Assembly (NCBI GenBank): GCA_023663345.1 | Contig: JAMPHR010000001.1 | Location: forward strand, 512,719 to 572,831 | Direction: 5' to 3' | DNA: 60,113 nucleotides | Source of the DNA: Paenibacillus sp. | Lineage (GTDB): Bacteria > Bacteroidota > Bacteroidia > Bacteroidales > Muribaculaceae | Shown here: one piece after another, positions 15,474 through 46,889 of the stretch | How the letters are laid out: each line of letters starts with the position of its first letter | Position numbering within the stretch: position 1 is the stretch's first letter | Position numbers and translations under genes: made by a program | Notes under the pieces: generated by a model | What the model was told of the DNA's origin: nothing | The model's database searches: none | What the model saw: the letters and a program-made list of their open reading frames with translations, nothing else

Positions 15474-16442
15474 ATGAATCTGATAACAAAACATGATACA
15501 TCGGCCCGGCGCATCGCCGCTGTGGGGATGTATGACGGTGTGCATCTGGGCCACCGTTTCCTCATAGACTATCTCGGAGTAGAGGCCCGCAGCCGCGGGC
15601 TGGTTCCGGCGGTGGTCACCTTCTCTCGGCATCCGCTGTCGCTGGTGCGCCCGTTGCAGGCTCCGGCTCTGCTCAACACTCTCGAGGACCGCGTGACCAT
15701 GATAGGCGAGGCGGGCGCACGGGATGTGATATTGCTGAGTTTCAACGACTCGCTCCGCCACATGAGCGCCGAGGAGTTCCTGAGGGAGCTTAAGAGCAAG
15801 TTTGGTATCGTGGCCCTGGTGCTGGGATTCAACAACCGTTTCGGACACGACCGCATGGAGAGCATGGATCAGTATCGCGCCGTGGGCGAGAAGGTGGGGG
15901 TCGAGGTGATACCCGCGCCCGAGTACCGTGGCGGATCGTCGCCGGTGAGCTCGTCGATCATACGCCGTTATCTGAGCGAGGGGCGTCCCGAGGATGCCGC
16001 CCGCGCCCTGGGCCGTCCTTACTCACTGAGGGGCAAGGTGATCAACGGCAAGAGGCTGGGCCGTACACTCGGATTCCCGACGGCCAACCTGAGCCTGCCC
16101 GATTATCAGGCGCTTATACCCAAGACCGGCGCTTATGCGGCCTATGTGACCACGCCCGACGGGGTGAGGCGCAAGGCTGTGGTGAACGTGGGCTACCGTC
16201 CCACGGTTGACTCGCCCGACGCTTCGGCCGAGTACAGCCACGCGGCCTCTTCGGCCCCGGGGGCCGGAGCGGAGCTGAGTATCGAGGCTCATATCCTTGA
16301 TTTTGTGGGATATATCTACGATGAGGAGATCAAGGTGGAGTTTGTGAAATATCTCCGGCCCGAGCGCCGGTTTGCCGACACCGCCAAGCTCTCGGCCCAG
16401 GTCAAGGAGGACATCGCTACGGCGAGGAAATCATTAGTATAG
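15474..16442 (+). CDS. ribF: Bifunctional riboflavin kinase/FAD synthetase
   Basis: 322 residues. The N-terminal FAD synthetase (nucleotidyltransferase) domain has GMYDGVHLGHRFLIDYL near residue 18 and GFNNRFGHDR. The C-terminal riboflavin kinase domain has LGRTLGFPTANLSLP and KTGAYAAYV. Between RPTVDSP and ELSIEAHILDF, where homologues have a short turn, there is an extra Ala/Ser-rich stretch of about 20 residues (DASAEYSHAASSAPGAGA). The last two codons and the stop (TTA GTA TAG) are the first bases of an AGTATAGAG array, so the repeat determines the C-terminus. Confidence 0.95.
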   Translation: MNLITKHDTSARRIAAVGMYDGVHLGHRFLIDYLGVEARSRGLVPAVVTFSRHPLSLVRPLQAPALLNTLEDRVTMIGEAGARDVILLSFNDSLRHMSAEEFLRELKSKFGIVALVLGFNNRFGHDRMESMDQYRAVGEKVGVEVIPAPEYRGGSSPVSSSIIRRYLSEGRPEDAARALGRPYSLRGKVINGKRLGRTLGFPTANLSLPDYQALIPKTGAYAAYVTTPDGVRRKAVVNVGYRPTVDSPDASAEYSHAASSAPGAGAELSIEAHILDFVGYIYDEEIKVEFVKYLRPERRFADTAKLSAQVKEDIATARKSLV

Positions 16443-16510
16443 AGTGTTTTAGTATAGAGTATAGAGTACTTTAGTATAGAGTACTTTAGTATAGAGTGCT
16501 CAGTATAGAG
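16436..16510 (+). repeat. AGTATAGAG array at the end of ribF
   Basis: Six copies of (G)TATAGAG, partly organised as a 15-base unit TTTAGTATAGAGTAC, begin inside the ribF stop codon and run about 70 bases. The orientation is that of ribF. Related arrays follow msbA-like, proA, proB and the ABC ATPase gene in this window. Confidence 0.85.
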
Positions 16511-17246: not shown

Positions 17247-17265
17247 TGTGGCTGTGAATATACGG

Positions 17266-17295
17266 TAAAGGTACAAGATTTTTATGTAAATTCAA
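17266..17295 (-). promoter_or_regulatory. Candidate promoter of the ECF sigma gene
   Basis: On the minus strand TTG (17295-17293), 19 bases, then TACCTTTA (17273-17266), one base off TAnnTTTG. It supports the start at 17246. Confidence 0.4.
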
Positions 17296-17378
17296 TATAT
17301 TGTATATTTTTTTACTAAAAAAGTATCGTTTTTGCTACCTATCACGTGTATTGTACAAACGATCGTTAAATAAGGCTC

Positions 17379-18560: not shown

Positions 18561-18630
18561 TCAACTGTTTATAACGTCAAGTGACAATCTTGTAATTATT
18601 TAATCAATCATTTCATTATCTCTAAAATCT

Positions 18631-21600: not shown

Positions 21601-22131
21601 CATGATGTGTACTTTAGCGGCGATGCTTCTGCGCTGTATTTCGGCGGACAAACCGATCCTAAATATATAGTTGGTATAGACAACCAGATAAGGTGGCGTA
21701 ATTTCTCTTTAGGTTTTCTGTTGTCATATTATGGCGGACATAAGATATTGTGTCTCCCATACGAAGATCAGTTCGAGGGATTATTTGAGGGACCGGCCAA
21801 ATCTTATTACCTGAATGCCTGGACTCCTGATAATCCATCGGATGTCCCGGCTATAGGAGAGTGGGCCCATGCCACATCTCTTGATCAGGCTCCCAGCTAC
21901 TCCGACAGGGCTTTGCATGATGCTGATTTCATAAAGTTCCGCAATATAGTGTTGGGATATGATGTCCCGGTGAAAATCATGCGCCATATAGGTATAAACA
22001 ATTGTTCAATACGGTTCCAGATCAATGATCCTAAAGCGATATGGACTAAAGATAAGACGGATTTTGATCCTGAGACCGGAGGCATACGTGTCCCTTCAAG
22101 CTACGTATTCGGTATAAATCTTAACCTCTAA
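18631..22131 (+). CDS. SusC/RagA-family TonB-dependent receptor with STN domain
   Basis: 1,166 residues. After the signal peptide (MARRILALLIVLLAVPLVMSA) come an STN signalling domain (about 25-98, ISLKHADAETSLARLQQVTG), a CarboxypepD_reg-like domain (about 110-185) and the plug (ending SVNVLKDAAAAAIYGARAANG). A 22-strand barrel follows, ending in a typical aromatic/hydrophobic last strand (SYVFGINLNL). It imports a nutrient bound by the SusD partner using TonB energy, and the STN domain reports occupancy to FecR. From about 19600 onward the gene is clearly more AT-rich than its first kilobase. The cargo is unknown: no degradative enzyme is adjacent. Confidence 0.93.
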   Translation: MARRILALLIVLLAVPLVMSARNYDISLKHADAETSLARLQQVTGYDFVYQSELLKGSDVFITADFKDASLESILDNVVTARLGLSWKLVKNTIVLSRPTAVKGAPVTVNGTVRDHEGEPVVGASVKVVGETLGVATNVDGEFSISAPIGSSLSISYIGMNPQVVKVTSDKKIKVEMQQSATMLSEVVITGYQEIKKEKMTGSVATISADKLQERYTQNLLSNLEGHVAGLSTYGGKPVIRGAGTLHGSTAPLLVVDGMPIEGSIEDLNPYDIESVNVLKDAAAAAIYGARAANGIIVVTTKDAKKSGKIDIDFASNITWYEKTNVDYADNYYMTPAQQIGVESNYYDYFFFSGEEVNPIGDFESELSDGYSISPLKYAYYQLAKGQISNDQLEAVKRNLSNNNLAKALADNMLHRRVIQQYNLSLRNRTENSRNNVVMNYKHDNVGKFNHKDEWLNISYKGSFDLARWLTATVSINGLYANTREYGGRYETEDIYNPFAYTPYMQYRNADGSIRPYYYGGYGNEYTQYWELQDGIADMIVNPRQEATDNVQTTRRQEMRYHADLLFRILPGLTANAQFIYEVTTQRMRNYANENSWAARNMKNGFADYENGKVVYLTPENGGILKTSNIDGNYYTVRGQLNYSRTFFDKHEISAIAGTEFRQTKMWGEKQLILGYDDQLQSSSTHTVDFNELKNLGWAAPYWCIGSQSGLIDTDQFEDDNTVIPEVLHRYASGYFNATYTYDNRYNVFGSFRKDYADVYGLNSKFRGKPLWSVGAGWNIHNEDFIRGITWINFLKLRYSYGVTGNIYQGATSFMTASSGFTNDVTNTIYGKIESPANPNLRWEQSRTHNIGADFSLMDYRLRGNIDYYRKEGRDIFGNKLLDATTGFSSMNANIASVLNQGIEFSVGYDWFRPNRNHDLSWSTNITFSYNKNKVTYVENPQTSALGLINTPYKIGYPINALWVLKFAGIDDTPGSEGQSLYDDGHGGVSHDVYFSGDASALYFGGQTDPKYIVGIDNQIRWRNFSLGFLLSYYGGHKILCLPYEDQFEGLFEGPAKSYYLNAWTPDNPSDVPAIGEWAHATSLDQAPSYSDRALHDADFIKFRNIVLGYDVPVKIMRHIGINNCSIRFQINDPKAIWTKDKTDFDPETGGIRVPSSYVFGINLNL

Positions 22132-22143
22132 TATTCCTCATCC

Positions 22144-23646
22144 ATGATATTAAAAATTTTCAATAGAATGACTGTTATGGCAGTGGCATCGGCTATGGCT
22201 CTGGGCTCATGCGAGAGCTATACCGACATTGACCAGAAAGGAATGAATCTGCTTACGAAGACTTCAGATCTTGAGTTGCTTCTCAATACTCAATATTCAG
22301 GCCCGATTGATGATCTCGGCACTGTGAGTGGCGATATAATATCTCGCTCGGACTGCGGTTATCTACCTCAGACCCTCACGAATTCAGTGAAGACTTATGG
22401 CTCAATCCTTATAAGCTGGGATGAGGAGGCCCATGCATCCCGACTCCCCCAGCTCACGGAACAGGACGGATTATATGAGGCGTGCTATAATTATATCGGC
22501 AGGATTGCCAATCCGATCCTTCAGCGTGTGGATGATGCGGATGGTACTCAGGATCATAAAGATCGTTTACGTGCCGAAGCATATGCCATGAGGGCTTTCT
22601 TTCATTTTATCGTAGCTCAGAAGTATGCCAAAGCCTATGATCCTTCGGTAGCGTCATCCGAGCCGTGTATTCCGTATATGACTGAGGATTGCGACATACA
22701 ACAGCCTACATCACAGGCTACCCAAAAGGAGGTCTATGAGTTGATACTCAGGGATCTCGACCGGGCTATCGAGCTTAACAGTCTGCCGGAATCGGCCATC
22801 AACCGTATGCGCTTCTGTGCTGCAATGCCTTATGCCATAAAGGCTCATGTGTTGTTGGTGATGCGAGATCTTGACGGTGCTGAGATTGCCGCAAAGGAGG
22901 CTTTAAAGCATGGAGACATGATTGATGATTATGCGGATTATATCGCCACCGGTTATTCATACGGAGGTTTCCCGATAGAATCCTTTACGCCCGGGACATC
23001 ACTTAATCTGGAGGAGGACTATTTCGCTTCCGCCGAGCAAAATATATTCAAGCTCATCACGCCGTTCTGTGAAAGCATGTTTGAGGATGGTTCCTACAGG
23101 AAAGATAATCTGGTCACTAATGCCTTGAGATATCGGGGTGCATACGACCCTGATGATCTTGACAACGACTTGCTGATCATAAAGGCCAATAATGAAAAAT
23201 CATACGGTGTCCCTTATATCATGACTTATGATATGAGATCTTATCATAACACCATAGGTATAAAAACTACCCACATGTATCTGATATTGGCTGAATGTGC
23301 TATCGGGCGTGGCGATATCGGATCGGCTATGGAGTATCTTGACATGATCAGGGTAAAGAGAATAGCTCCATCCCATTATCAGGATCTAAAGGGGCGTGTA
23401 CAGGATAAGGCTGAGGCCATCAGGTGTCTTAAGAAGACATGTCATGGGGAATATGCCTACACAATATGGAATTTCTTCTGCCGTAAGAGATGGACCAAAC
23501 TCGATGATTACAAGGAGACATTCACCCGTGTATTGTGTGGCAACACCTATACCCTGACACCCGAGTCGGACTTGTGGGTATTTCCGTTCCCGGTATCGGT
23601 AATGGCATTGAATCCTAACCTGAAACATAATTATGATACTAAGTAA
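22144..23646 (+). CDS. SusD/RagB-family nutrient-binding outer-membrane lipoprotein
   Basis: 500 residues. The lipoprotein signal ends at ALGSC (Cys near residue 27). The TPR-like SusD helices are visible, e.g. DRLRAEAYAMRAFFHFIVAQKYAKAY, a family hallmark (here split as RAEAYAMRAFFHF and KYAKAYDPS), and the C-terminal ESDLWVFPFPVSVMALNPN is the usual SusD ending. It caps the SusC barrel encoded 12 bases upstream and binds the ligand. Codon use is AT-rich, like the barrel part of its SusC partner. Confidence 0.92.
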   Translation: MILKIFNRMTVMAVASAMALGSCESYTDIDQKGMNLLTKTSDLELLLNTQYSGPIDDLGTVSGDIISRSDCGYLPQTLTNSVKTYGSILISWDEEAHASRLPQLTEQDGLYEACYNYIGRIANPILQRVDDADGTQDHKDRLRAEAYAMRAFFHFIVAQKYAKAYDPSVASSEPCIPYMTEDCDIQQPTSQATQKEVYELILRDLDRAIELNSLPESAINRMRFCAAMPYAIKAHVLLVMRDLDGAEIAAKEALKHGDMIDDYADYIATGYSYGGFPIESFTPGTSLNLEEDYFASAEQNIFKLITPFCESMFEDGSYRKDNLVTNALRYRGAYDPDDLDNDLLIIKANNEKSYGVPYIMTYDMRSYHNTIGIKTTHMYLILAECAIGRGDIGSAMEYLDMIRVKRIAPSHYQDLKGRVQDKAEAIRCLKKTCHGEYAYTIWNFFCRKRWTKLDDYKETFTRVLCGNTYTLTPESDLWVFPFPVSVMALNPNLKHNYDTK

Positions 23647-36186: not shown

Positions 36187-36225
36187 GCCCCCACGCGCGA
36201 GTCGGCGTGGGCTGTAAGTGTTTTT
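36187..36225 (+). terminator. Terminator after secG
   Basis: CCCACGC (36190-36196) pairs with GCGTGGG (36205-36211), with weaker pairing outside and TTTTT a few bases downstream. Confidence 0.5.
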
Positions 36226-36277
36226 GACTATCTCAGACACACATACTCTTAGATCATACTCTCTTAGACGCCCGTAC

Positions 36278-38110
36278 ATGAAAGAACTTTGGACCCTGTT
36301 CAGAAGATTTGTCCCGCCATATAGAAAATACCTGTTCCTGAACATCTTCTTCAATATACTCGCGGCCTTCCTCACTCTGTTCTCGTTTGCCGTGATCATC
36401 CCCATCCTCGAGATCCTGTTCAAGATCAGGGAGGCCAATTACGCCTACATGGATTGGGGGAGCGGATCGGTAAAGGATGTGGTGATAAACAATTTCTATT
36501 ACTATACCCAGGAGTGCATCAATGAGTGGGGCCCGATAGGCACGCTCACCGCCATGGCCGGACTGCTCGTGGTGATGACCATGCTAAAGACCGGAGCCAC
36601 CTATCTGAGCAGCTATTTCGTGATACCGATGCGTGCCGGCATCGTGAGGGATATACGCAATTATGTGTATGACAAGATTGTACGTCTCCCCATAGGATTC
36701 TTCACTACCGAGCGCAAGGGCGATGTGATGGCCCGCATGACGGGCGACGTGGCCGAGATCGAGAACTCTATCATGTCGACACTCGACATGATATTCAAGG
36801 ATCCCATCATGATCATCGTGTGTCTGTCGATGATGCTGTTTCTGTCGTGGCAGCTCACGGTGTTTGTGCTATTGTTGTTGCCCATCGCCGGCTCGCTTAT
36901 GGGGCGTGTGGGCAAGAGGCTGAAAAGAGCCTCGTTTGAGGGTCAGCAACAGTGGGGCTTGCTCATGAGCAACATCGAGGAGACCCTCGGTGGACTGCGT
37001 ATCATCAAGGCTTTCAATGCCGAGCAGAAGGTGCAGGACCGTTTCCATGACGGCAACCAGGAGTTTTTCCGCATCACCCGTAACGTGCAGCGCCGTCAGT
37101 CGCTCGCCCACCCGATGAGCGAGTTTCTCGGCACCGTCACCATCGCCATAGTGCTGGTGTTCGGTGGCACACTCATTATTAAAGGTGTATCGGGCATGAC
37201 CGCCGCGTCATTCATATATTATATGGTGATGTTCTACTCGATCATCAACCCGGCCAAGGATCTGACCAAAGCCATGTACAGCATACAGAAGGGTCTGGCC
37301 TCGATGGAGCGAGTGGATGCGATACTCAACGCCCAGAATCCTATCCAGGATCCCGCAAAGCCCGAGAAGATCGAGGATCTGAAAGGGGAGATACAGTATA
37401 AGAATGTGACATTCGGATATGACCCCGACGTGCCCGTGGTGAAGAACGCAAATATCACCATCCGCCCGGGCGAGACTGTGGCTCTGGTGGGGCAGAGCGG
37501 TAGTGGAAAGTCCACGATGGCCGATCTGTTGCCCCGATTCTACGACGTGAATTCGGGCAAGATCATGATTGACGGCCATGATATACGCGACCTGAAGGTA
37601 CACGACTTGCGTTCACTCATGGGAAATGTGAATCAGGAGGCGATCCTGTTCAACGACACGATATTCAACAATATAGCATTTGGTGTAAAGAATGCCACTA
37701 TGGAGCAGGTGATCCAGGCGGCCAAGATTGCCAATGCGCATGATTTCATCATGGCTACCGAGGATGGTTACAACACTAATATCGGTGACCGCGGTTGCCG
37801 ATTGTCGGGCGGTCAGCGCCAGCGACTCTCCATAGCCCGCGCCATTCTTAAGAATCCCCCGATACTCATTCTCGACGAGGCCACCTCGGCTCTTGACAGC
37901 GAGAGTGAGAAACTGGTACAGGAGGCATTGGAACGACTGATGAAAAACCGCACTACGCTTGTCATAGCCCACCGTCTCTCCACCATCAAGAACGCATCGC
38001 AGATATGCGTGATGCACGAGGGCGAGATTGTGGAGCATGGCACTCATGACGAGCTCCTTGCCCTCAATGGCTACTATACCCGACTCGTGGAAATGCAGTC
38101 AATGAAGTAA
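36278..38110 (+). CDS. ABC exporter (MsbA-like), fused membrane and ATPase domains
   Basis: 610 residues from ATG 36278 (MKELWTLFRRFVPPYRKYLF). An upstream in-frame ATG exists but the added 20 residues look unrelated. Six membrane helices fill residues about 15-330. The ATPase domain has Walker A GQSGSGKST near 405, the signature LSGGQRQRLSIARAI, Walker B ILILDEATSALD and the H-loop VIAHRLSTI. Related exporters flip lipid A-core or other lipids; the lptE neighbourhood fits that, but the substrate is inferred. An AGTATAGAG array begins 2 bases after the stop. Confidence 0.9.
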   Translation: MKELWTLFRRFVPPYRKYLFLNIFFNILAAFLTLFSFAVIIPILEILFKIREANYAYMDWGSGSVKDVVINNFYYYTQECINEWGPIGTLTAMAGLLVVMTMLKTGATYLSSYFVIPMRAGIVRDIRNYVYDKIVRLPIGFFTTERKGDVMARMTGDVAEIENSIMSTLDMIFKDPIMIIVCLSMMLFLSWQLTVFVLLLLPIAGSLMGRVGKRLKRASFEGQQQWGLLMSNIEETLGGLRIIKAFNAEQKVQDRFHDGNQEFFRITRNVQRRQSLAHPMSEFLGTVTIAIVLVFGGTLIIKGVSGMTAASFIYYMVMFYSIINPAKDLTKAMYSIQKGLASMERVDAILNAQNPIQDPAKPEKIEDLKGEIQYKNVTFGYDPDVPVVKNANITIRPGETVALVGQSGSGKSTMADLLPRFYDVNSGKIMIDGHDIRDLKVHDLRSLMGNVNQEAILFNDTIFNNIAFGVKNATMEQVIQAAKIANAHDFIMATEDGYNTNIGDRGCRLSGGQRQRLSIARAILKNPPILILDEATSALDSESEKLVQEALERLMKNRTTLVIAHRLSTIKNASQICVMHEGEIVEHGTHDELLALNGYYTRLVEMQSMK

Positions 38111-38222
38111 TTCAGTATAGAGTATAAAGTATAGAGTATAGGGATTAGCGAGGTCGCAAAATCAGCGCACAAACTAATCCCTATACTCTATACTGAAAGA
38201 ATCTCTATACTGAAAATTCTCT
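38111..38222. repeat. Paired AGTATAGAG arrays forming a palindrome between convergent genes
   Basis: The left array (38113-38148) reads AGTATAGAG on the plus strand after the msbA-like stop. The right array (38174-38222) reads it on the minus strand after the proA stop. The inner parts, 38128-38148 and 38174-38194, are perfect 21-base inverted copies with a 25-base loop. The region could act as a bidirectional terminator. Confidence 0.85.
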
Positions 38223-39462
38223 ACGAACGCGTCTGGCCGGTGCCGGTGAGGAGGTAGCGGTAGGTGGTGATTTCGCGTAAACCCATAGGTCCGCGGGGGC
38301 CGAGTTTCTGGGTGCTGATACCGATTTCAGCTCCGAGTCCAAACTGCGCGCCATCGGTGAAACTGGTCGGCGCATTGACATATACACATGATGCGTCAAC
38401 CTCGGCCTGGAATCGGTCGGCCACCTCATCCGAGCCGGTGATTATACACTCGCTATGCCCCGAGCCATGTTCCGCGATATGAGATATGGCCTCGCTGACT
38501 GATGCTATCGTGCGTAGCCCCATCTTATAGTCCATCCATTCGCGGTCCCAATCCTCCGGAACAGCCGGGATCAACAGATGCTCAGGATAATGGCCCGCAA
38601 GAGCCATCAGGCTCTCAGGATCGGCATGTATCTCCACATTTTTCTTGGCGAGCGGTTCACACAGAGCAGGAAGATCGCTGAGGCGGTCGCGGTGGATCAG
38701 CAGGGTATCGAGGGCGTTGCATACGCTCACACGGCGGGTCTTGGCATTGGTTATGATGTCGCGTCCCATGGCCGTGTCACCGTCGAGATCAAAGTAGGCA
38801 TGTACAACTCCCGCACCGGTCTCGATCACCGGGATGCGGGCATTGTCGCGCACGAAATCTATGAGCCGTCGGCCACCGCGCGGGATGCACACGTCGACAT
38901 ATCCCACGGCGTTGAGCAACTGTGCCGTTGCCTCATGTGTTGCCGGGAGCATCACAGCCACATCGGGATTTATGCCATGACTCCGAAGCGCCTCATGGAT
39001 AATGGACATGGCGGCGATATTGGACTGCTCGGCATCCTTTCCTCCCTTGAGGATGCAGGCGTTTCCACTCTTGAAGCAGAGTGAGAACACATCGAATGTG
39101 ACATTGGGCCGGGCCTCGTATATGACACCTATCACTCCAAACGGCACGCGTACTCTGCGAAGGAGTATGCCGTTGGGCAGAGTGCGCCTCTCTATTTCTT
39201 CCCCTACGGGAGAGGGGAGCGAGGCAACGTTGCGGATATCTGAGGCTATGGCCGATATGCGTGCCGGAGTGAGCTGCAAACGGTCGTAGAGCGGATTGGC
39301 AGGATCCATCAGCGCCAGGTCGCGGGCGTTGGCTTCAAGAATCGAGGCCGAGCCGGATTCGAGAAGATCGGCGAGGGTGAGGAGCACCTCATTGCGCTCC
39401 CGGTCGCTTATATTTGCTATGGTGCGTGATGCCTCGCGCACCTTCTTGAAAATTTCTGTCAT
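38221..39462 (-). CDS. proA: Gamma-glutamyl phosphate reductase
   Basis: 413 residues, normal length. The ALDH-like family motifs are GVIGVIYEARPNVTFDVFSL, FKSGNACILKGGKDA and the catalytic cysteine in RRVSVCNALDTLLIH (C248). The C-terminus reads GPMGLREITTYRYLLTGTGQ. It makes glutamate-5-semialdehyde for proline synthesis. It is the last gene of proC-proB-proA and is separated from proB by an AGTATAGAG array instead of a tight junction. Confidence 0.96.
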   Translation of the reverse strand: MTEIFKKVREASRTIANISDRERNEVLLTLADLLESGSASILEANARDLALMDPANPLYDRLQLTPARISAIASDIRNVASLPSPVGEEIERRTLPNGILLRRVRVPFGVIGVIYEARPNVTFDVFSLCFKSGNACILKGGKDAEQSNIAAMSIIHEALRSHGINPDVAVMLPATHEATAQLLNAVGYVDVCIPRGGRRLIDFVRDNARIPVIETGAGVVHAYFDLDGDTAMGRDIITNAKTRRVSVCNALDTLLIHRDRLSDLPALCEPLAKKNVEIHADPESLMALAGHYPEHLLIPAVPEDWDREWMDYKMGLRTIASVSEAISHIAEHGSGHSECIITGSDEVADRFQAEVDASCVYVNAPTSFTDGAQFGLGAEIGISTQKLGPRGPMGLREITTYRYLLTGTGQTRS

Positions 39463-39530
39463 TGGGTTGGTTTCTTAAATTATTAAAGATACAACAAATT
39501 CACCGCCCTAAAGCCGAGTCAGCCATAAGG

Positions 39531-39617
39531 CCCTCTATACTCTATACTTCCCCCTCTATACTAAAATCCTCTATACTAAAAAGCCCTCTATACTCTATAC
39601 TTTCCTCTCTATACTCT
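39531..39617 (-). repeat. AGTATAGAG array between proB and proA
   Basis: Seven or so copies of CTCTATAC on the plus strand, i.e. GTATAGAG in the direction of proB, start 5-6 bases after the proB TGA. They fill half of the 159-base gap to proA. Confidence 0.85.
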
Positions 39618-39621
39618 CAAA

Positions 39622-40689
39622 TCAGTCGATATAAAGATAATCGTAATGCACTATGGGGCGCTGGCCTCGCTGGCCGATGGCTAAGGCCGTGTCGGAGCTC
39701 GACATTGACGCACGTCCCACACCTATGTGGCTACCGTCGGGGCCGATGATGGACACTATGTCCCCCTCTTCCCATTCGCCGTCCACCGAGGTTATGCCTA
39801 CAGGGAGCAGGCTCACGGCCCGGTCGCTACGCAGGGCCTCCTCGGCCCGCGCGTTTACACGGATCATCCCTTTGGCAAACGATGCGCTGTGGGCTATCCA
39901 CCGTTTCACATTGCTGAGAGGTTGGGGAGAGGGGAGGAATGTGGTGTGGGGAACCTCCTCGGGAGTCTCGATGAGCCCCACAAGGACTCCGGGACGGTCG
40001 CCACGTGCTATCATAACTGTGATACCTTCGTCGCTCACTTTTCCGGCGATTCCGCATTTTGTTCCCATACCTCCGCGTCCGAAACCGCTTTTGGAAGCCA
40101 CCACATATTCGCTAAGGTCACGCCCGGGGGCTACCTCGGGAATGAGGCGAGAGGAGGGATCAGCCGGCGAGCCGGTGTATATGCCGTCGACATTGGAGAG
40201 TATCACTAAGGTGTCGGCATCGACCATCGTGGCGATGAGTCCCGACAGTTCATCGTTGTCGGTGAACATCAGTTCGGTGAGGCTCGCCGTGTCGTTCTCG
40301 TTCACGATGGGTATCACGCCGTTTTCGATCATGGTGAGCATACAGGCACGCTGGTTGAGATATGAGGTTCGCGATGCAAAATTCTCTTTTTGGGTAAGCA
40401 CCTGGCCCACTACCAGTCCGTAACCCGAGAACAGCTGATTGTAGAGATTTATGAGACGAATCTGGCCCACGGAGGAATACAGCTGTCGGGCCGATACGCT
40501 GTCGAGTTGCCGGGTAGGGGTGACGGCTCCGCGACCGCAGGCCACCGCACCGCTCGATACCAGTATCACCTCATGGCCGAGCGACCTCAGGGTGGCTATC
40601 TGATCGACAAGCGACGACATATTTGTCACATTAGGCATTCCGTCGGAGCGGGTGAGCACGTTGCTCCCCACTTTCACTACTATTCTCAT
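39622..40689 (-). CDS. proB: Glutamate 5-kinase with PUA domain
   Basis: 355 residues. The amino-acid kinase domain has IVVKVGSNVLTR at the start, VILVSSGAVACGRG, the NENDTASLTELMFTDNDELS substrate loop and GRGGMGTKCGIAGKVSDEGI. A C-terminal PUA domain follows from about 275 (INARAEEALRSDRAVSLLPV-like segment). It phosphorylates glutamate as the first step of proline synthesis and is normally inhibited by proline. Its ATG overlaps the proC stop by 4 bases, which indicates translational coupling. Confidence 0.95.
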   Translation of the reverse strand: MRIVVKVGSNVLTRSDGMPNVTNMSSLVDQIATLRSLGHEVILVSSGAVACGRGAVTPTRQLDSVSARQLYSSVGQIRLINLYNQLFSGYGLVVGQVLTQKENFASRTSYLNQRACMLTMIENGVIPIVNENDTASLTELMFTDNDELSGLIATMVDADTLVILSNVDGIYTGSPADPSSRLIPEVAPGRDLSEYVVASKSGFGRGGMGTKCGIAGKVSDEGITVMIARGDRPGVLVGLIETPEEVPHTTFLPSPQPLSNVKRWIAHSASFAKGMIRVNARAEEALRSDRAVSLLPVGITSVDGEWEEGDIVSIIGPDGSHIGVGRASMSSSDTALAIGQRGQRPIVHYDYLYID

Positions 40690-41477
40690 TGCGGTGTCGA
40701 GGCTTTAAGGCCGTTTATCACAGCCGAGGTGAATCCTGATTGCTCCATGGCGTTGAGTCCCTTGATGGTGATACCGCCGGGAGTCGTCACCTTGTCAATC
40801 TCGGTTTCGGGATGTGAGCCGGGCTGGGCGAGGAGTCCGGCAGCCCCTATGAGGGTCTGTACCACTATCTCCTGGGCAAGCGATGCGCGTATGCCAAGCT
40901 CTACACCGCCCTCCATGGCCGCGCGCACATAGCGCATGGCGTAGGCTATGCCACACGAGGCGAGCGAGGTTGCCGCTCCGAGTTGCCGCTCCTCGATGAC
41001 CATGACCGAGCCGAGTTGCGAGAAGAGAGATTGTGACGCGGGGCATGTGCCGAATCCGTTGACCTGAAATGTCATGGATTGACATAGCGATACTGCGGTG
41101 TTGGGCATCTCGATACAGAAAGGAGGCAATGCCACCTCATCCTCGATCTTTCCCAACCACACGGCCAGAGTCTTGGTGGGGATTCCGGCGGCGACCACGG
41201 CTATTTCTGTGCGCGAGTAGTCGATGTGATCCTTTATCTCGTCGATCACCTGCTCCACAAACCAGGGTTTCACGCAGAGTATCACCACATCGGCTCCGGT
41301 CACAGCCTCGACATTGGATGCCGTGGTGATGGCTCCAAGCCGGGCGAGCGGATGGAGCTTATCGGTCGATGGGTTGGAAACGGTTATATCGTTAGGGCAG
41401 GACTTGTAAGTTGTGTTGAGAAGTCCGCGGGCGATAGCTCCGCCCATCGCACCGGCACCTATAATGGAAACTTTCAT
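40686..41477 (-). CDS. proC: Pyrroline-5-carboxylate reductase
   Basis: 263 residues. An N-terminal Rossmann fold (VSIIGAGAMGGAIARGLL) is followed by VILCVKPWFVEQVIDEI and IPTKTLAVWLG. The conserved C-terminal signature is present as KVTTPGGITIKGLNAMEQSG. It carries out the last step of proline synthesis. It heads the proC-proB-proA operon with a -7 box at 41505-41512. Confidence 0.94.
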   Translation of the reverse strand: MKVSIIGAGAMGGAIARGLLNTTYKSCPNDITVSNPSTDKLHPLARLGAITTASNVEAVTGADVVILCVKPWFVEQVIDEIKDHIDYSRTEIAVVAAGIPTKTLAVWLGKIEDEVALPPFCIEMPNTAVSLCQSMTFQVNGFGTCPASQSLFSQLGSVMVIEERQLGAATSLASCGIAYAMRYVRAAMEGGVELGIRASLAQEIVVQTLIGAAGLLAQPGSHPETEIDKVTTPGGITIKGLNAMEQSGFTSAVINGLKASTPQ

Positions 41478-41504
41478 TTGTCAATTATTGAGGGGTTGTA
41501 TTAA

Positions 41505-41512
41505 CAAAATTA
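41505..41512 (-). promoter_or_regulatory. -7 box for the proC-proB-proA operon
   Basis: TAATTTTG on the minus strand, 27 bases before the proC start. Confidence 0.5.
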
Positions 41513-41625
41513 CCGCATTTTAGCGAGAAATACAAGAAATATGTTGGATTAGTGTATGATGTGGCTATGTGCCTCTAATTTTTTTGAAAAAAATCAAAAT
41601 TGATTGAGTGGCTTTGTTTGGAGGC

Positions 41626-41640
41626 ACGTATATTATACGT
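41626..41640. promoter_or_regulatory. Small perfect dyad upstream of the beta-helix protein
   Basis: ACGTATA-T-TATACGT, seven base pairs about one central base, 22 bases before the ATG at 41662. It could be an operator; no TAnnTTTG box was found nearby. Confidence 0.3.
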
Positions 41641-41661
41641 ATAACCATAAAAATATACTGC

Positions 41662-43320
41662 ATGAAAAAACTTTACTCAATTATCGCCATGCTCTTTGTG
41701 GGCCTGGCAACCCTCTCAGCCCAGAACACAGTGTTCATTGGGGAAACCGGCTACGGCTCGTTGGCCGAAGCTGTCGAAGCCGCCACAGACGGCGCGACCA
41801 TCACTATCAAGGGTGATCAGTCTTTTACCGGCAATCGTATCAACATTACAGGGAAAACTTTGAATTTCAAAGGTGAAGACGGAGCTAAGATTATCCGTGG
41901 AGATAAGAATAAAACAAATCTGCTCTTCCTGCTTGATAAGGCCTCTTGTAAGTTTGAAAATTTGACTTTCGATGGAAACAATGTGGAGGGAGTCACTCAG
42001 AAAATGATTGAAGCCAAGAACGGTTCAAATCTTACTGTTTCTGACTGCTCGTTTATTAATTGTTGCCAGGCAGTCGTACAGGTGAAGTCCAATGTGACTC
42101 TGAATAATGTTTCTGTGACAGGAACACTTCCTGATGGGAAAGGTGCTATTTTTGTTGGACAGAACAATGCGCTGACAGTTTCGGGTACTGCTTCTTACTC
42201 AGTAGAAATCGAAAAAGGATATCGAATCAAGCAAGGCGAGAATCTTTCAGGATCGATTGGAATTTATCTTAACGGTGATGTCTCGTTATGGAGCACTATT
42301 GTAACTGGTGGTACCAGCGTATCCGTTTTCAAATTAATGAATGCTCCGGAAGGATATAGCCTTGGGGTAAGTGGCAATGATATCAATATTATGAATATTG
42401 ATAATGCCGTGGTAAAGAATCTTACCACTAATGCTTCCTATGGTAGTTTCAAGGATGCCATGTCATCCCTCGAGGAAGGAGTGCTCAACGAGCTTGAGAT
42501 ACTTGACAATATAACTACCGAAGAGCGTTATATTCCCGCAAATACCCAGAATGTAACTATTTCAGGAACAGCCGGCAAAGATATCGTAATCACACGAGGC
42601 GGTTATAACAAGGGGCAGACAATGTTCGAGGCCAATAAAGGGGAGAAATTGACATTCAAGAATCTTACCTTGTCGGGCAAAGGGGTGGATGGAATAACCC
42701 AATCCATAATCTCATGTGACGGCAATGGCCTTTTCTTTGAGAACGTGACACTTGCTGATTTTGCAACATCTGCTCAAGGAGTGATTGTTGTGAAGAGAAA
42801 CGGTCATGCCTATTTCAACGGAACCACGTTTGCCAATGCCGAAGGTAATAAGAGTGACGTGTATGTATTTGCCGGAGGCGTGATGCATATTACAGGCGAT
42901 AATGTGATCGGAACAATTACGCTCAACAAGGAGAATGATTCAGCTACAGGAATCAGCAAGATTGTAATGGACGTAGCTTCCCAGGCTAATGCCCAGGCCG
43001 AAAATCCATCGAAGATAATTCTTGAGGGACCTTGGGCTATCGGCAATACCATTGTTGAGGGTTGTACAGATCCATCGATGTTTACGCTTGACTATCAGAT
43101 CAACGGAAAACCCACATCGCTGGTAGTAAAGGATGGAAATCTGATGCTTGACGATTCCACCGGCATCGAGGATATCTTTGTCGGGGAGGAGAATGGTCCT
43201 GTGGATGTGTACAATATGCAGGGCGTCCTCCTTAAGTCCAACGTGGATCCCGCCAACGCCACCGAGGGGCTCGCCAAGGGCGTGTATATCATCGGAGGTA
43301 AGAAAGTTGCCGTCTATTAA
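41662..43320 (+). CDS. Secreted beta-helix-like protein with internal duplication and sorting-like tail
   Basis: 552 residues from ATG 41662; the upstream in-frame ATG at 41608 would precede the signal peptide (MKKLYSIIAMLFVGLATLSA) and is unlikely. Two similar modules start at residues about 31 (YGSLAEAVEAATDGATITIK) and about 260 (YGSFKDAMSSLEEGVLNELE). Each is followed by a run of short beta strands as in right-handed parallel beta helices (KFENLTFDGNNVEGVTQKMI versus TFKNLTLSGKGVDGITQSII). The last 45 residues (VDVYNMQGVLLKS, then GLAKGVYIIGGKKVAVY) look like a Bacteroidales C-terminal sorting domain. No catalytic motif was recognised. Codon use is AT-richer in 41850-42500 than in the ends. 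Confidence 0.75.
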   Translation: MKKLYSIIAMLFVGLATLSAQNTVFIGETGYGSLAEAVEAATDGATITIKGDQSFTGNRINITGKTLNFKGEDGAKIIRGDKNKTNLLFLLDKASCKFENLTFDGNNVEGVTQKMIEAKNGSNLTVSDCSFINCCQAVVQVKSNVTLNNVSVTGTLPDGKGAIFVGQNNALTVSGTASYSVEIEKGYRIKQGENLSGSIGIYLNGDVSLWSTIVTGGTSVSVFKLMNAPEGYSLGVSGNDINIMNIDNAVVKNLTTNASYGSFKDAMSSLEEGVLNELEILDNITTEERYIPANTQNVTISGTAGKDIVITRGGYNKGQTMFEANKGEKLTFKNLTLSGKGVDGITQSIISCDGNGLFFENVTLADFATSAQGVIVVKRNGHAYFNGTTFANAEGNKSDVYVFAGGVMHITGDNVIGTITLNKENDSATGISKIVMDVASQANAQAENPSKIILEGPWAIGNTIVEGCTDPSMFTLDYQINGKPTSLVVKDGNLMLDDSTGIEDIFVGEENGPVDVYNMQGVLLKSNVDPANATEGLAKGVYIIGGKKVAVY

Positions 43321-43325
43321 TCTCC

Positions 43326-43347
43326 TCGGGGGGGTCCCCCCGGTTTT
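43326..43347 (+). terminator. GC-rich hairpin after the beta-helix gene
   Basis: A run of seven G and a run of six C around one T form a compact stem, followed by GGTTTT. Confidence 0.55.
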
Positions 43348-43401
43348 ACCAGAAACAATTCAAATAATTCTTTTTATACATTAAGGTAATACAGGTAATG
43401 G

Positions 43402-43440
43402 TCCTCCTCTCGCCGTGGTGGCGGGGGGAGGATGTTTCTT
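43402..43440 (+). terminator. Second terminator-like hairpin
   Basis: TCCTCCTCTCGCC (43402-43414) pairs with GGCGGGGGGAGGA (43420-43432), with one mismatch, followed by TGTTTCTT. Confidence 0.65.
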
Positions 43441-43466
43441 TGTGGCAGATGTTGTCACACGATGGA

Positions 43467-43498
43467 TTTGTATGGGAACGATAGTTTTAGTAAGTTTG
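43467..43498 (+). promoter_or_regulatory. Bacteroidota promoter of the lipoprotein-ABC operon
   Basis: TTTG (43467-43470), 20 bases, TAAGTTTG (43491-43498), a full -33/-7 match, 38 bases before the ATG at 43537. Confidence 0.65.
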
Positions 43499-43536
43499 CA
43501 TATTGAAACAACATTATTCATAATATATTCATACTC

Positions 43537-44937
43537 ATGAATCTCCGACACTTATCGCTGTTATTCCTCATTACATTGTTCGTGGGGATAGCCACCACCT
43601 CCTGCTCCCGTCAGGGAGAACTCCTCGACACCGTTCCGGCCGATGTTTCGGCTGTGGCTACTGTCGATCTCAAGAAATTGTGTGAAGCCTCGGGCATCAC
43701 GTTCTCAGCCGACGGAATCAAGGCCGACGGCAAGATCAACTCAGGTCTGCGCGGCGATCTCCGCGAGATGCTCGACCGCATGGCGCGTCTCGACAGCGAC
43801 GGTGTTGCCGATTTCAGCCATGTAGCAGTGGCAGTCGACGGTGACGGTGCGCAATATGTCACCTTTTCCATAAGCGATTACGATAAGTTGAAGGAACAGT
43901 CGGACCAATGGATAGAGTGGCAGGCCGATGCCGACGGCTATCATGTAGCCGACATGGGTGACGGTTGCACGCTTCTGTGTTCATCCTCTCAGGCATGGCT
44001 CGTGAACGATGTTCGCGGATCGGCCACCAAGGCTCTGGAGGGATTGCTCAAGAGGGCCGACAATATGCCGGTGTCGAAACTCGACGGCATAATGCAGGCG
44101 TTGGGACGTGACAATATAGCGAATATAGCAGTGGCCTCGGGCTTCATATCCTTTGCCACCGACAAGAAATCCGACACCGAGATCCCGGCGCAGGACAAGG
44201 AGTGGAATGTGGCTTCGCTCAACACTGGAGCCGACAACAGCCTGGTGGCCGAGTGGGAGACTATGCAGTCGACAGGCCGTACAGTCAAGGTGAAAGGTCT
44301 GCAGAATATCAATCCTGCTCTCCTTGCCTATGTGCCCGAGGACTACAATCTGACATTTGCCGTTGGGCTTACTCCCGAATTTAATTGGAAGCCGGTGGAG
44401 CAGTTGGCGCTCGCCGTGGGCGGATTTCAGGCCGGAGCGTTCATGGCCGTGGTCAATCCTTTCCTGGAGTCGATCAACGGGTCGGTGCTGATAGCGGCCA
44501 AGCCTCTCACTGCCGAAGCTATTGCCGACGGTGATCCGTCAGACTGGGATTTCATCGTGCTTGCCCACATGCCTCAGGACAAGATCAACCGTCTCATGAC
44601 CATGATCGCATCCATGATGTCGACTGCCGGCATCGCGCCGAGTGTCAACGAGCAGGGGATGATGGTGGTGCCGCAGTATGGCAAGAATCTCTATATAGGA
44701 AATGTCGACGGCTATCTCGGTATATCCACCAAGGAGTTTGACAATTCACGTAACAATTCGCTCGCCCCGACATTTGTGAACAAGGAGCTGGCATTTTCCA
44801 CTGTTTTCCCCATGGGTGATGATGGCGTCTCGCTCGATGCGTCGGTGTCGATGGCCGGGAGCAAGGGGCAGGCTAAAATGAAGATAAAGGGGACTGAGGT
44901 ATCGACCCTCATGTATCTCCTCTCGATGGTGCTATGA
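43537..44937 (+). CDS. Uncharacterised lipoprotein, possibly DUF4836-like
   Basis: 466 residues. The lipobox is ATTSC (Cys about 23). The start of the mature protein (LLDTVPADVSAVATVDLKKL) resembles Bacteroidales lipoproteins of the DUF4836 kind, which begin with a VPxDAxxVxxxDLKxL pattern; I am not certain of the family. The rest alternates beta strands and helices without a catalytic motif I recognise. Its stop overlaps the ATPase start by 4 bases (ATGA), so it is translationally coupled to an ABC transporter and may be its periplasmic or outer-membrane partner. Confidence 0.65.
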   Translation: MNLRHLSLLFLITLFVGIATTSCSRQGELLDTVPADVSAVATVDLKKLCEASGITFSADGIKADGKINSGLRGDLREMLDRMARLDSDGVADFSHVAVAVDGDGAQYVTFSISDYDKLKEQSDQWIEWQADADGYHVADMGDGCTLLCSSSQAWLVNDVRGSATKALEGLLKRADNMPVSKLDGIMQALGRDNIANIAVASGFISFATDKKSDTEIPAQDKEWNVASLNTGADNSLVAEWETMQSTGRTVKVKGLQNINPALLAYVPEDYNLTFAVGLTPEFNWKPVEQLALAVGGFQAGAFMAVVNPFLESINGSVLIAAKPLTAEAIADGDPSDWDFIVLAHMPQDKINRLMTMIASMMSTAGIAPSVNEQGMMVVPQYGKNLYIGNVDGYLGISTKEFDNSRNNSLAPTFVNKELAFSTVFPMGDDGVSLDASVSMAGSKGQAKMKIKGTEVSTLMYLLSMVL

Positions 44938-45596
44938 TAAGTGAGATAACATTGCATAACGCGCTCCCCCGTGTGTTCCGGGGGAGCGAGAATGAGGCTC
45001 CGGTCAAGGACAGCGAGGTGTGGTTGCGTCCCGGGCTGACTTTCCGCCGTCCTGAGGCGTATATCATAGAGGCCGAGAGCGGAACGGGAAAATCGTCGCT
45101 GTGCTCGTATATATATGGTGCGCGCACTGACTATGACGGCGATATTACGTTTGACGGCGTTTCGGTAAGGGACTTTTCAGTCGAAAAGTGGTGTGAGTTG
45201 CGCCGTGAGGCTCTGGCTTATCTGCCACAGGAGATGCGGCTGTTTGCCGAACTGTCGGTCATGGATAATATTCTGGTCAAAAACCGCCTCACCGATTACC
45301 GCACCGGTGAGCAGATACTGGCAATGCTCGAGCGCATGGAGCTAAAGCATAAGGCCGGGGAACCTGCCGGACGGCTGAGTGTTGGTCAGCAGCAGAGGGT
45401 GGCTATAGTGAGGGCTCTGTGTCAGCCGTTTGATTTTCTTCTGGTCGATGAGCCGGTGAGTCATCTCGATGCGAGAAACAATGCTACCGTGGCCCGGATG
45501 ATAGCCGAGGAGGCCCGAGCCCGCTCGGCCTCGGTCATAGCCACGTCGGTAGGCAATAAACTCACCCTAAGCGAATACACCCTCCTGCATCTTTGA
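44934..45596 (+). CDS. ABC transporter ATP-binding protein, LolD/FtsE-like, with degenerate motifs
   Basis: 220 residues. Walker A is ESGTGKSS, lacking the usual first glycine. The Q-loop region is AYLPQEMRLFAELSVMDNI and Walker B is FLLVDEPVSHLD. The signature reads LSVGQQQRVAIVRAL instead of LSGGQ. The H-loop position reads VIATSVGNK with Ser where His is normal. Size and order place it with LolD/FtsE/MacB-type ATPases. It is coupled to the preceding lipoprotein and lies 90 bases before an FtsX-like permease. Altered motifs suggest low or specialised ATPase activity. Confidence 0.85.
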   Translation: MISEITLHNALPRVFRGSENEAPVKDSEVWLRPGLTFRRPEAYIIEAESGTGKSSLCSYIYGARTDYDGDITFDGVSVRDFSVEKWCELRREALAYLPQEMRLFAELSVMDNILVKNRLTDYRTGEQILAMLERMELKHKAGEPAGRLSVGQQQRVAIVRALCQPFDFLLVDEPVSHLDARNNATVARMIAEEARARSASVIATSVGNKLTLSEYTLLHL

Positions 45597-45603
45597 GATT
45601 TAA

Positions 45604-45623
45604 AGGTTGTCTTTTGACAACCT
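45604..45623 (+). terminator. Hairpin after the ABC ATPase gene
   Basis: AGGTTGTC-TTTT-GACAACCT, a perfect 8-bp stem with a T4 loop. No U-run follows, so it may be an attenuator or an RNA-stability element inside the operon. Confidence 0.5.
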
Positions 45624-45626
45624 CTG

Positions 45627-45661
45627 AGTATAGAGTGGAAAGTATAGAGTATAGCGATTAG
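45627..45661 (+). repeat. AGTATAGAG array between the ABC ATPase and permease genes
   Basis: Three copies of GTATAGAG-like units in the direction of the ATPase gene. The final 21 bases (45641-45661) match those at 38128-38148 except for one base (C for G). It is followed by TTTTTT. Confidence 0.8.
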
Positions 45662-45686
45662 TTTTTTAGATCAAAGAAATGATATT

Positions 45687-46889
45687 ATGTCTAATCCGAT
45701 AAGGCGGCTGTTGCGCCGCAATATAAGTGCCGGGCAGATTGCCGGATATGCCGTGGCCAATCTCGTGGGATTGCTGATTGTGCTCACAGCCATACAGTTT
45801 TACCGCGATGTCACCTCAGTGAGCCAGGCCGAGGACTCGTTCGTCTCCGACGACTATCTCATTATCTCGAAGCGTGTCGAGGGTTTGCAGGGACTTGCCG
45901 GACCCTCGGGATCGGCCACCACATTCACCCGTGACGAACGCTCGGATATCGCCTCGCAACCGTGGGCTTCAGGCGTGGGGGAATTTACCTCGGCCGACTT
46001 CAATGTGAGCGCCCAGGTGAATGTGGCCGGTGCCAATCTGTCCACAGCCCTGTTTCTGGAGTCAATTCCCGATGAGTTTTTCGACATTTCACCGCGTGGC
46101 TGGGATTATCGTCCCGGTTCGGGCGATCCGGTGCCTGTGATCATCTCCAAGGATTATCTTACGCTGTATAATTTCGGGTTCGCGGCCTCGCGGGGAATGC
46201 CTCAGATCTCCGAGGAGTTGATAGGGATGCTCCCGCTCAAACTCTCGCTCAGCGGCAATGGCCGTCAGCAGTGGGTGGATGCCCGTATCGTGGGATTCTC
46301 GTCGCGCCTCAACACCATAGCTGTGCCGGCCGACTTCCTTGTGTGGGCCAACGGAGTGTTTGGCGAGGGGAAAGGAGAGACGGATCCGTCGCGCCTGATC
46401 GTGCGCCTGAGCCGTGCCGGAGATCCCGAGGCGACGGCCTATATGGAGGCGCATGGCTATGAGATAGCCGGCGACAAGGCTGCCGGTGGCAAAGCGGCTT
46501 ATTTCCTGTCGGTGGTCACGACCGTAGTGGTGGCTATCGGGGCTATCATCAGTATTCTTGCGTTCTTTATCCTGTTGCTCAGCATCTATCTGCTCCTGCA
46601 GAAAAACCGTGGCAAGATCCACGATCTCATGCTTTTAGGCTATACTCCCTCCCAGGTGGCCCGCTATTACGAGGCTATCGTGGCGAGTGTCAATGCCGGT
46701 GTGCTGTTGCTCGCGTTGGCCGGGATGCTCATGGCATCGGCTATGTGGCAGGGTAGCATCGAAGCGCTTGGTGCCGAGGGGGCGTCATGCTGGCCCACAG
46801 TGCTTATCGGCGTGGTGATAATTCTTGTCATAACGACCGGTAATGTGATGGCCATACGCCGCAATGTGAGAAGCAGTTTCAGGAATTGA
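45687..46889 (+). CDS. ABC transporter permease, FtsX/MacB-like
   Basis: 400 residues. One membrane helix near the N-terminus (IAGYAVANLVGLLIVLTAIQ, about 19-38) is followed by a long extracytoplasmic domain (about 40-265). Three C-terminal helices follow (about 272-305, VAIGAIISILAFFILLLSIY; about 330-355; about 370-390). This is the four-helix layout of FtsX, LolC/E and MacB permeases. It pairs with the ATPase upstream. The three-gene unit could export or extract lipoproteins, act as an FtsEX-like mechanotransmission device, or expel a toxic compound; sequence alone does not decide. Confidence 0.82.
   Translation: MSNPIRRLLRRNISAGQIAGYAVANLVGLLIVLTAIQFYRDVTSVSQAEDSFVSDDYLIISKRVEGLQGLAGPSGSATTFTRDERSDIASQPWASGVGEFTSADFNVSAQVNVAGANLSTALFLESIPDEFFDISPRGWDYRPGSGDPVPVIISKDYLTLYNFGFAASRGMPQISEELIGMLPLKLSLSGNGRQQWVDARIVGFSSRLNTIAVPADFLVWANGVFGEGKGETDPSRLIVRLSRAGDPEATAYMEAHGYEIAGDKAAGGKAAYFLSVVTTVVVAIGAIISILAFFILLLSIYLLLQKNRGKIHDLMLLGYTPSQVARYYEAIVASVNAGVLLLALAGMLMASAMWQGSIEALGAEGASCWPTVLIGVVIILVITTGNVMAIRRNVRSSFRN

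Follow-up and report, generated by a model that had tools for sequence, protein, structure and literature searches.

Strand-polar arrays of the heptamer AGTATAG at gene edges in a genus of Muribaculaceae

Arrays of the heptamer AGTATAG are dispersed between genes in several genomes of one genus of Muribaculaceae, and in the samples described below they lie with their 5' ends toward a gene edge, avoid the gaps between divergent genes and often face one another across a gap; species of the same genus carry different heptamers. The arrays form, as the original prediction had it, a dispersed family that is intergenic, TAG-rich and palindromic where two arrays face. They are not a new kind of element, and the placement that had been put forward as possibly novel belongs to a kind that Rehm et al. 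(2015; PMC4692102) describe for other heptamers. Our preferred reading, which we hold tentatively and would place a little short of an even chance, is that the arrays belong to a dispersed intergenic heptamer family that is restricted to the genus, mainly non-adaptive, or selfish, and copied with strand polarity.

The five arrays of the window and the heptad unit

The window, the whole 60,113-nucleotide stretch that was analyzed (G000:C11:512719-572831), belongs to a source genome, G000, of 2.64 Mb that is 87% complete. The five arrays predicted in it are all present, and the names proposed for the adjoining genes are consistent with NCBIfam. On the plus strand, six exact AGTATAG units (16436..16508) lie at the end of ribF (15474..16442, plus strand; TIGR00083, over the curated cut-off), and the stop codon of ribF (TAG, 16440-16442) is the TAG of the first unit. 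Behind the stop of an msbA-like ABC transporter gene (36218..38110, plus strand; MsbA match below the curated cut-off), the heptads AGTATAG, AGTATAA, AGTATAG, AGTATAG and GGATTAG succeed one another (38114..38148, plus strand), with three exact units at 38114-38141. This left arm faces a right arm on the minus strand (38174..38211, three exact units at 38181-38211) behind the stop of proA (38221..39462, minus strand; over the curated cut-off). We confirmed the perfect inverted repeat between the two, in which 38174-38194 is the reverse complement of the 21 bases at 38128-38148, as well as the copy at 45641-45661 that differs from this repeat by one base. In the proB-proA gap, seven units (39535..39615, minus strand) begin 7 bp past the stop of proB (39622..40689, minus strand; over the curated cut-off). 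The fifth array (45627..45661, plus strand) consists of three units (45627-45654) followed by CGATTAG; it is unpaired and starts 30 bases past the stop of an ABC ATPase gene (44934..45596, plus strand; match below the curated cut-off), beyond a small hairpin. That arrays begin 0 to 30 bases past a stop holds in part: they are often flush with stops, but the ribF stop lies within the first unit. Allowing at most one mismatch, GTATAGAG matches the window 62 times, against a mean of 32.2 and a maximum of 48 in 100 shuffles.

The unit is best described as the heptad AGTATAG, and the commonest unit spacings are 7 and 14. Many arrays carry, often at their 3' end, a split-heptad core module, AGTATAG-AGNNNAA-AGTATAG-AGTATAG; among arrays of three or more exact units, a spacing of 14 followed by one of 7 closes the array in 26 of 52 cases in G000 and in 41 of 46 in a second genome, G026. 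Farther 5' of the module the units are mostly spaced by 14 to 18 bp. The search pattern itself makes most of the core invariant, though not the NNN positions, which are near-free, or the tail. In 24 of 52 arrays of G000 the heptad after the last unit is GGATTAG, TGATTAG or CGATTAG, and at least 24 of the 46 in G026 have ATAATNN there. The outer border of repetitiveness is sharp in G026, where repeated 12-mers (those present in at least four stretches) make up 2% at 20 to 30 bp outside an array versus about 70% within it, and less sharp in G000 (4-13% outside versus 43-56% within). Every AGTATAG contains TAG, and the unit lacks the G runs that form quadruplexes.

Placement relative to genes

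Genes were called with a simple hexamer-based caller over 818 kb of G000 and 380 kb of G026, and distances to start codons are approximate, since gene starts come from this caller. Most of the stretches were picked for containing arrays; 18, from contigs C16 and C17, were picked by place, two of which were already known to hold arrays. Taking an array to be at least two exact units, and skipping the arrays of one stretch (L187) that overlap the window, we found 116 arrays, none of which lies within an ORF. Setting aside four with no called neighbor on one side leaves 112: 40 in convergent gaps, 38 in tandem gaps and co-oriented with the genes, 32 in tandem gaps and anti-oriented, and 2 in divergent gaps.

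The original prediction held that the motif reads in the direction of the upstream gene. All five arrays of the window fit this rule, but it fails more widely, given that co-oriented and anti-oriented arrays are nearly balanced in tandem gaps (38 versus 32; p=0.55); convergent gaps cannot test it, because either orientation satisfies it by definition. Equal frequency upstream of genes, which had been named as evidence against the prediction, is thus largely what we see for orientation. It is not what we see for position, and neither is the random position that had been named alongside it. That is, of the 70 tandem arrays, 62 have the 5' end as the one closer to a gene edge (p=2e-11); of all 112 arrays, 64 have their 5' end no more than 30 bp from an edge and 7 their 3' end. 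This near edge is a stop codon for co-oriented arrays and a start codon for anti-oriented ones; half of the latter (16/32) start within 30 bp of a START codon, which speaks against a 3'-end or stop-codon element as such.

By class, the 5' end is nearer the edge in 36/38 co-oriented, 26/32 anti-oriented, 30/40 convergent and 2/2 divergent arrays. For arrays alone in their gap, the corresponding counts are 20/20, 15/19, 11/14 and 2/2. The convergent arrays of G000 taken by themselves give 18/28 (p=0.18), and the single anti-oriented arrays of that genome give 7/9.

The choice of gap is also nonrandom. Divergent gaps make up 2 of 80 array-bearing gaps versus 15% expected (p=0.0005), whereas convergent gaps make up 25 of 80 versus 13% expected (p=1e-5). 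In the C16 and C17 stretches together with the window, arrays occupy 7 of 27 convergent, 3 of 145 tandem and 0 of 37 divergent gaps. When the 5' neighbor is on the opposite strand, none of 34 arrays reaches into the start of that ORF.

Distribution in the genus, other heptamers and known repeats

Six of the 27 genomes of the genus carry the exact 28-bp module (G000, G026, G006, G008, G010 and G014; 28 copies in G000 and 74 in G026), as do none of 220 genomes sampled from the rest of the family. Genome-wide counts of AGTATAGAG clearly exceed those of the reversed word in G000 (209 versus 29), G026 (229 versus 31), G008 (102 versus 23) and G010 (61 versus 28). The excess is slight in G006 (39 versus 26) and lacking in G003 (44 versus 58), and both of these genomes nonetheless contain clustered and facing arrays.

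Two loci bear on gain and loss. Measured between the ends of tblastn matches, the proB-proA gap of G000 is 159 bp long and includes an 81-bp array; among the 23 of 24 loci that were compared (a partial locus in G022 was omitted), proB lies nearby in 20 including G000, and in all 19 others the gap is about 5 to 107 bp and without AGTATAG arrays. Because the gap is short and array-free in these 19, the array of G000 is probably an addition made in that lineage. Behind ribF, where 25 of 26 loci were compared (a truncated locus in G021 was omitted), AGTATAG arrays are present in G000 and G026 and not in the 23 other genomes inspected. At these two loci, species within the genus thus seem to have gained or lost arrays. 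As a separate matter, a gene for an ECF-type sigma factor (window 16650-17276) adjoins ribF, and the syntenic stretch of G002 has the flanking orthologues but lacks the window genes at 16650-23646 that would lie between them.

The proB-proA gaps of G018 and G024 hold different short repeats in an inverted arrangement. Tandem triplets of GAATTNN number 139 in G024 and 27 in G018, with 1 to 9 in each of seven other genomes and zero in the other 18. The backward control of this search turned up TTAAGNN arrays in G012 (48 matches), including, at L436 5338-5447, a long array of 110 bp from this third heptamer family of the genus. For both words the purine-rich strand was set as forward before distances were computed, but after facing pairs had been noticed. 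In G024 (57% complete) 30 of 35 arrays have the 5' end closer to the gene edge (p=2e-5), after 3 of 38 with no neighbor on one side were dropped, and all 13 neighboring pairs face. In G012 the corresponding figure is 14 of 18 (p=0.03; 1 of 19 dropped), with two neighboring pairs facing and two in the same direction.

Beyond the genus, none of 80 named ProA loci, mostly Prevotella-like, has four or more AGTATAG units, and many of these loci have other intergenic arrays of 7- and 8-mers. With those whose purine share is within 0.1 of one half excluded, the set comprises 67 arrays, and by the orientation of the purine strand 37 are co-oriented and 15 anti-oriented in tandem gaps. The 5' end is nearer the edge in 29/37 co-oriented, 9/15 anti-oriented, 5/12 divergent and 3/3 convergent arrays; since the rule is clear only for the co-oriented arrays, its extension to Prevotella-like relatives is incomplete. 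Several short operon gaps in these relatives (L046-L100) consist almost entirely, from stop to next start, of locus-specific purine-rich 7- or 8-mer arrays.

Intergenic repeats with a heptameric unit are on record from several phyla, and the two papers considered here, Rehm et al. (2015; PMC4692102) and MacGregor (2015; PMC4679880), give no settled cause. The GGGNATC and GGGGA(C/T)T heptamers of Xanthomonas and Nostoc are described as intergenic, scarce in coding regions and between divergent ORFs, and as preferring, on the sense strand, the 50 bp next to a stop and, on the antisense strand, the 50 bp ahead of an ORF; they lie nearer their 5' neighbor whatever the strand of the ORF, and facing pairs number 70 in Xcc and 75 in Xac, with few in Nostoc (PMC4692102). 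On that description the AGTATAG arrays share with them the 7-bp unit, the intergenic location, the avoidance of divergent gaps, the 5' side nearer the ORF and the facing pairs. The published heptamers are G-rich and were studied as G-quadruplexes (PMC4692102), whereas AGTATAG, GAATTNN and TTAAGNN have no fixed G-tracts; therefore, quadruplexes are unlikely as a general cause. The AGTATAG arrays further differ from that account in their split 14+7 module and in the turnover of words between sister species. One genus thus has three unrelated heptamers in much the same geometry, which is the geometry published for G-quadruplex heptamers. That geometry, being shared across unrelated words, argues against quadruplexes and toward a common copying process or constraint, and the difference in words between close relatives makes the mechanism testable.

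Two other systems are close. MacGregor (2015; PMC4679880) reports TAACTGA as direct intergenic heptamer repeats of limited phylogenetic distribution, in Beggiatoaceae, cyanobacteria and some Bacteroidetes. The repeats, of which the BOGUAY genome has 169 sets, bring stops in all three frames, include "split" sets that have a related heptamer between them, and in some cases overlap ORF ends. The AGTATAG arrays resemble these in being intergenic heptamer repeats with split sets, a limited distribution and some overlap with ORF ends. Most BOGUAY TAACTGA sets are said there to read toward a nearby start codon, and only one inverted repeat is listed (PMC4679880); if TAACTGA is the forward strand, this polarity is opposite to that of AGTATAG. 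The BrickBuilt MITE of Porphyromonas gingivalis, as outlined by Klein et al. (2015; PMC4596501), has a 23-nt unit, 19 copies in ATCC 33277, and a leader and tail with inverted-repeat ends; like AGTATAG arrays, it is an intergenic element of Bacteroidales in which tandem repeats are joined with inverted repeats, but it lies 49 to 591 nt from the closest genes and not flush with gene edges. In the open-licence literature, which leaves subscription papers mostly outside, no description was found of the AGTATAG family or of a placement rule independent of the word.

Origin of the arrays

What process could place arrays in this way? We posit that DNA copying would lengthen arrays with a fixed polarity, the purine-rich strand growing 3'-ward and away from the gene edge, and that a growing array would sometimes fold back or be copied inverted, with purifying selection clearing copies from genes and promoters. 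The hairpins would then be a by-product of paired copies, which may happen to shield the 3' ends of mRNAs where genes converge. A copy running into a gene end would be tolerated because its TAGs close the reading frame at once. We infer the polarity of growth from array position alone, and the neutrality of the arrays is likewise posited; neither a copying event nor a copying enzyme was seen, the two candidate enzymes tested being Y1 transposase and reverse transcriptase. Three observations count against this account: the 14+7 spacing and recurring tail resemble a defined module, which pure slippage need not give; the strong hairpins of facing pairs could be selected; and the position rule is weaker in subsets, namely, the convergent and the single anti-oriented arrays of G000, the arrays of G012 and those of Prevotella-like relatives.

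The Y1 transposase (PF01797) has no match in G000, G026 (99% complete), G008 or G012, one copy each in array-bearing G003, G006 and G010, and three in G024; a RAYT/Y1 transposase does not track the arrays, being missing in G000, G026 and G008, and was rejected as the copier. Reverse transcriptases (RVT_1) have no match in G000, G008, G010, G014 or G024, an absence that is not certain because G000 is 87% and G008 77% complete. Those of G026, G006 and the first match of G003 are over the TIGR04416 cut-off and hence of the group II intron type; G003 also has a second fragment, and G012 has one match below the cut-off. A telomerase-like enzyme was rejected for the same reason, in that the reverse transcriptases do not track the arrays and those classified are of the group II intron type. 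DRT10, a UG17 reverse transcriptase, is described as making tandem-repeat DNA (PMC12632851, a preprint); on the matches just listed, DRT10/UG17 was not found in the array-bearing genomes, several of which are incomplete.

An alternative that we consider unlikely is an element of the MITE or REP/BIME type mobilized by a transposase, with facing arrays as its inverted ends, the interior as cargo and single arrays as remnants. Among 32 neighboring pairs of arrays that share a gap, 21 face, 8 run in the same direction and 3 are back to back, and this excess of facing pairs is what such an element would give. The sharp outer border at the first unit in G026, the recurring composite interiors, the 28 and 74 exact modules of G000 and G026, the array added between proB and proA and the Y1 transposase copies in G003, G006 and G010 also favor it. 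So do weak traces of a partner downstream of unpaired arrays, a search for which 111 of the 116 arrays had enough downstream sequence: the best opposite-strand score exceeds all 20 shuffles in 8 of 43 unpaired arrays of G000 and 10 of 27 of G026, the same-strand figures being 16/43 and 5/27. However, clear missed partners are rare, with an opposite-strand score of at least 15 bits in 1/43 and 0/27, respectively, and a symmetric MITE with lost arms is a weak candidate given that unpaired arrays yield only such traces. A single array is all that 59 of 84 array-bearing gaps contain, which does not amount to terminal inverted repeats at both ends; the interiors vary between species and loci, and PF01797 is absent from three array-bearing genomes, as set out above. 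REP/BIME elements are extragenic palindromes that avoid divergent promoter regions and are paired with RAYT transposases. The AGTATAG arrays differ from these in being tandem heptads and not single imperfect palindromes, and in the lack of a PF01797 match in G000, G026 and G008.

A selected RNA element is, in our judgment, improbable to a similar degree. Facing arrays would be bidirectional 3'-end hairpins that stabilize or bound transcripts, and single arrays would bind a protein on RNA or DNA. About one-third of arrays face a partner, and such pairs mostly give a long hairpin on either strand. The convergent palindrome between the msbA-like gene and proA (38111..38220, both strands) is predicted to fold as RNA at -53.8 kcal/mol (plus strand) and -54.1 kcal/mol (minus strand), with z of -11.6 and -10.3, an outer stem of about 12 bp and an inner stem of 21 to 22 bp; of the 15 of 20 facing pairs that were short and N-free enough to fold, 12 on the plus strand and 13 on the minus strand reach z <= -5. 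These folds and the enrichment in convergent gaps are what an RNA element would predict. Against it, the unpaired arrays are unfolded (median z -0.58, with z <= -5 in 1 of the 75 folded out of 76), anti-oriented arrays beside start codons would present the complementary sequence in RNA, and no Rfam family matches in the window at the gathering threshold. Terminator-like signals are also not enriched (1/53 genes with arrays versus 23/482 without, for gaps of at least 60 bp), and no hairpin with a T-tract was reported at the four arrays in 38000-46000. With anti-oriented arrays about as common as co-oriented ones and unpaired arrays unfolded, the roles originally suggested in stopping readthrough or terminating transcripts find no support here. 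Co-evolution of the two arms within a locus is only partly upheld: the arm from the same locus is the best match in 1 of 11 pairs of G000 and 5 of 9 of G026.

More speculatively, one may ask whether heptamer arrays of unrelated words, that is, AGTATAG, GAATTNN, TTAAGNN and the GGGNATC of Xanthomonas and Nostoc, could all be products of one strand-polar process in which exposed DNA ends in a gap between two genes gain tandem repeats on their 3' strands before being joined, the word being set by the current template of the species. Were this so, arrays would begin at gene edges, point inward and lie face to face, and the word would change with the template while the geometry stayed. Eukaryotes have interstitial or fused telomere repeats, and it is on the analogy with these and on the geometry that this proposal, a long shot in our estimation, is based.

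Binding sites for a nucleoid or chromosome-organizing protein seem a slightly more doubtful proposition still. Placement independent of transcription direction and a recurring module whose NNN positions are near-free (the search pattern fixes the other positions of the core) would suit such sites, but the distribution in the genus is patchy and other species use other words. The least probable account, and a very improbable one, is a cassette that would shut every reading frame behind a gene through the TAG present in each AGTATAG. Of 11 arrays that overlap or touch the end of an ORF, 5 provide the stop from the unit's own TAG, and the stop codon is TAG in 17 of 53 genes that have arrays versus 65 of 482 that lack them (p=0.001). 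However, tandem gaps contain co- and anti-oriented arrays in about equal numbers, and with the overlapping arrays set aside TAG is not significantly enriched (10/45; p=0.12).

Several further repeats accompany the arrays. Some facing arrays in G000 surround nested repeats of up to about 800 bp in total. At L110 (12223-13060) and L224 (6032-7600) of that genome, nested inverted repeats of about 500 to 800 bp have heptamer arrays as their outer layer, with inner layers (TAGGACGTCTTCGACGCCC) that recur and no gene called within; at L111 (16400-17560), a further repeat family (GTCCAATAGTG / CACTATTGGAC) is interleaved with heptamer arrays. A separate short palindromic repeat (GTAGGGACGCGC...GCGCGTATGCC) often lies just inside AGTATAG arrays in G026 (L205, L216, L240, L203 and L220), and a variant of it stands, without an array, behind ribF at G010 L272, so that the repeats make up composite mosaics. 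Some facing pairs in G026 are near-perfect long palindromes that include locus-specific sequence (72/76 and 108/109 aligned bases). In the same genome, near 6029 and 6354 of L219 and near 6012 of L240, perfect palindromes are centered at or near a stop codon, and there the last 12 to 23 nt or so of the gene seem to be inverted directly behind the stop.
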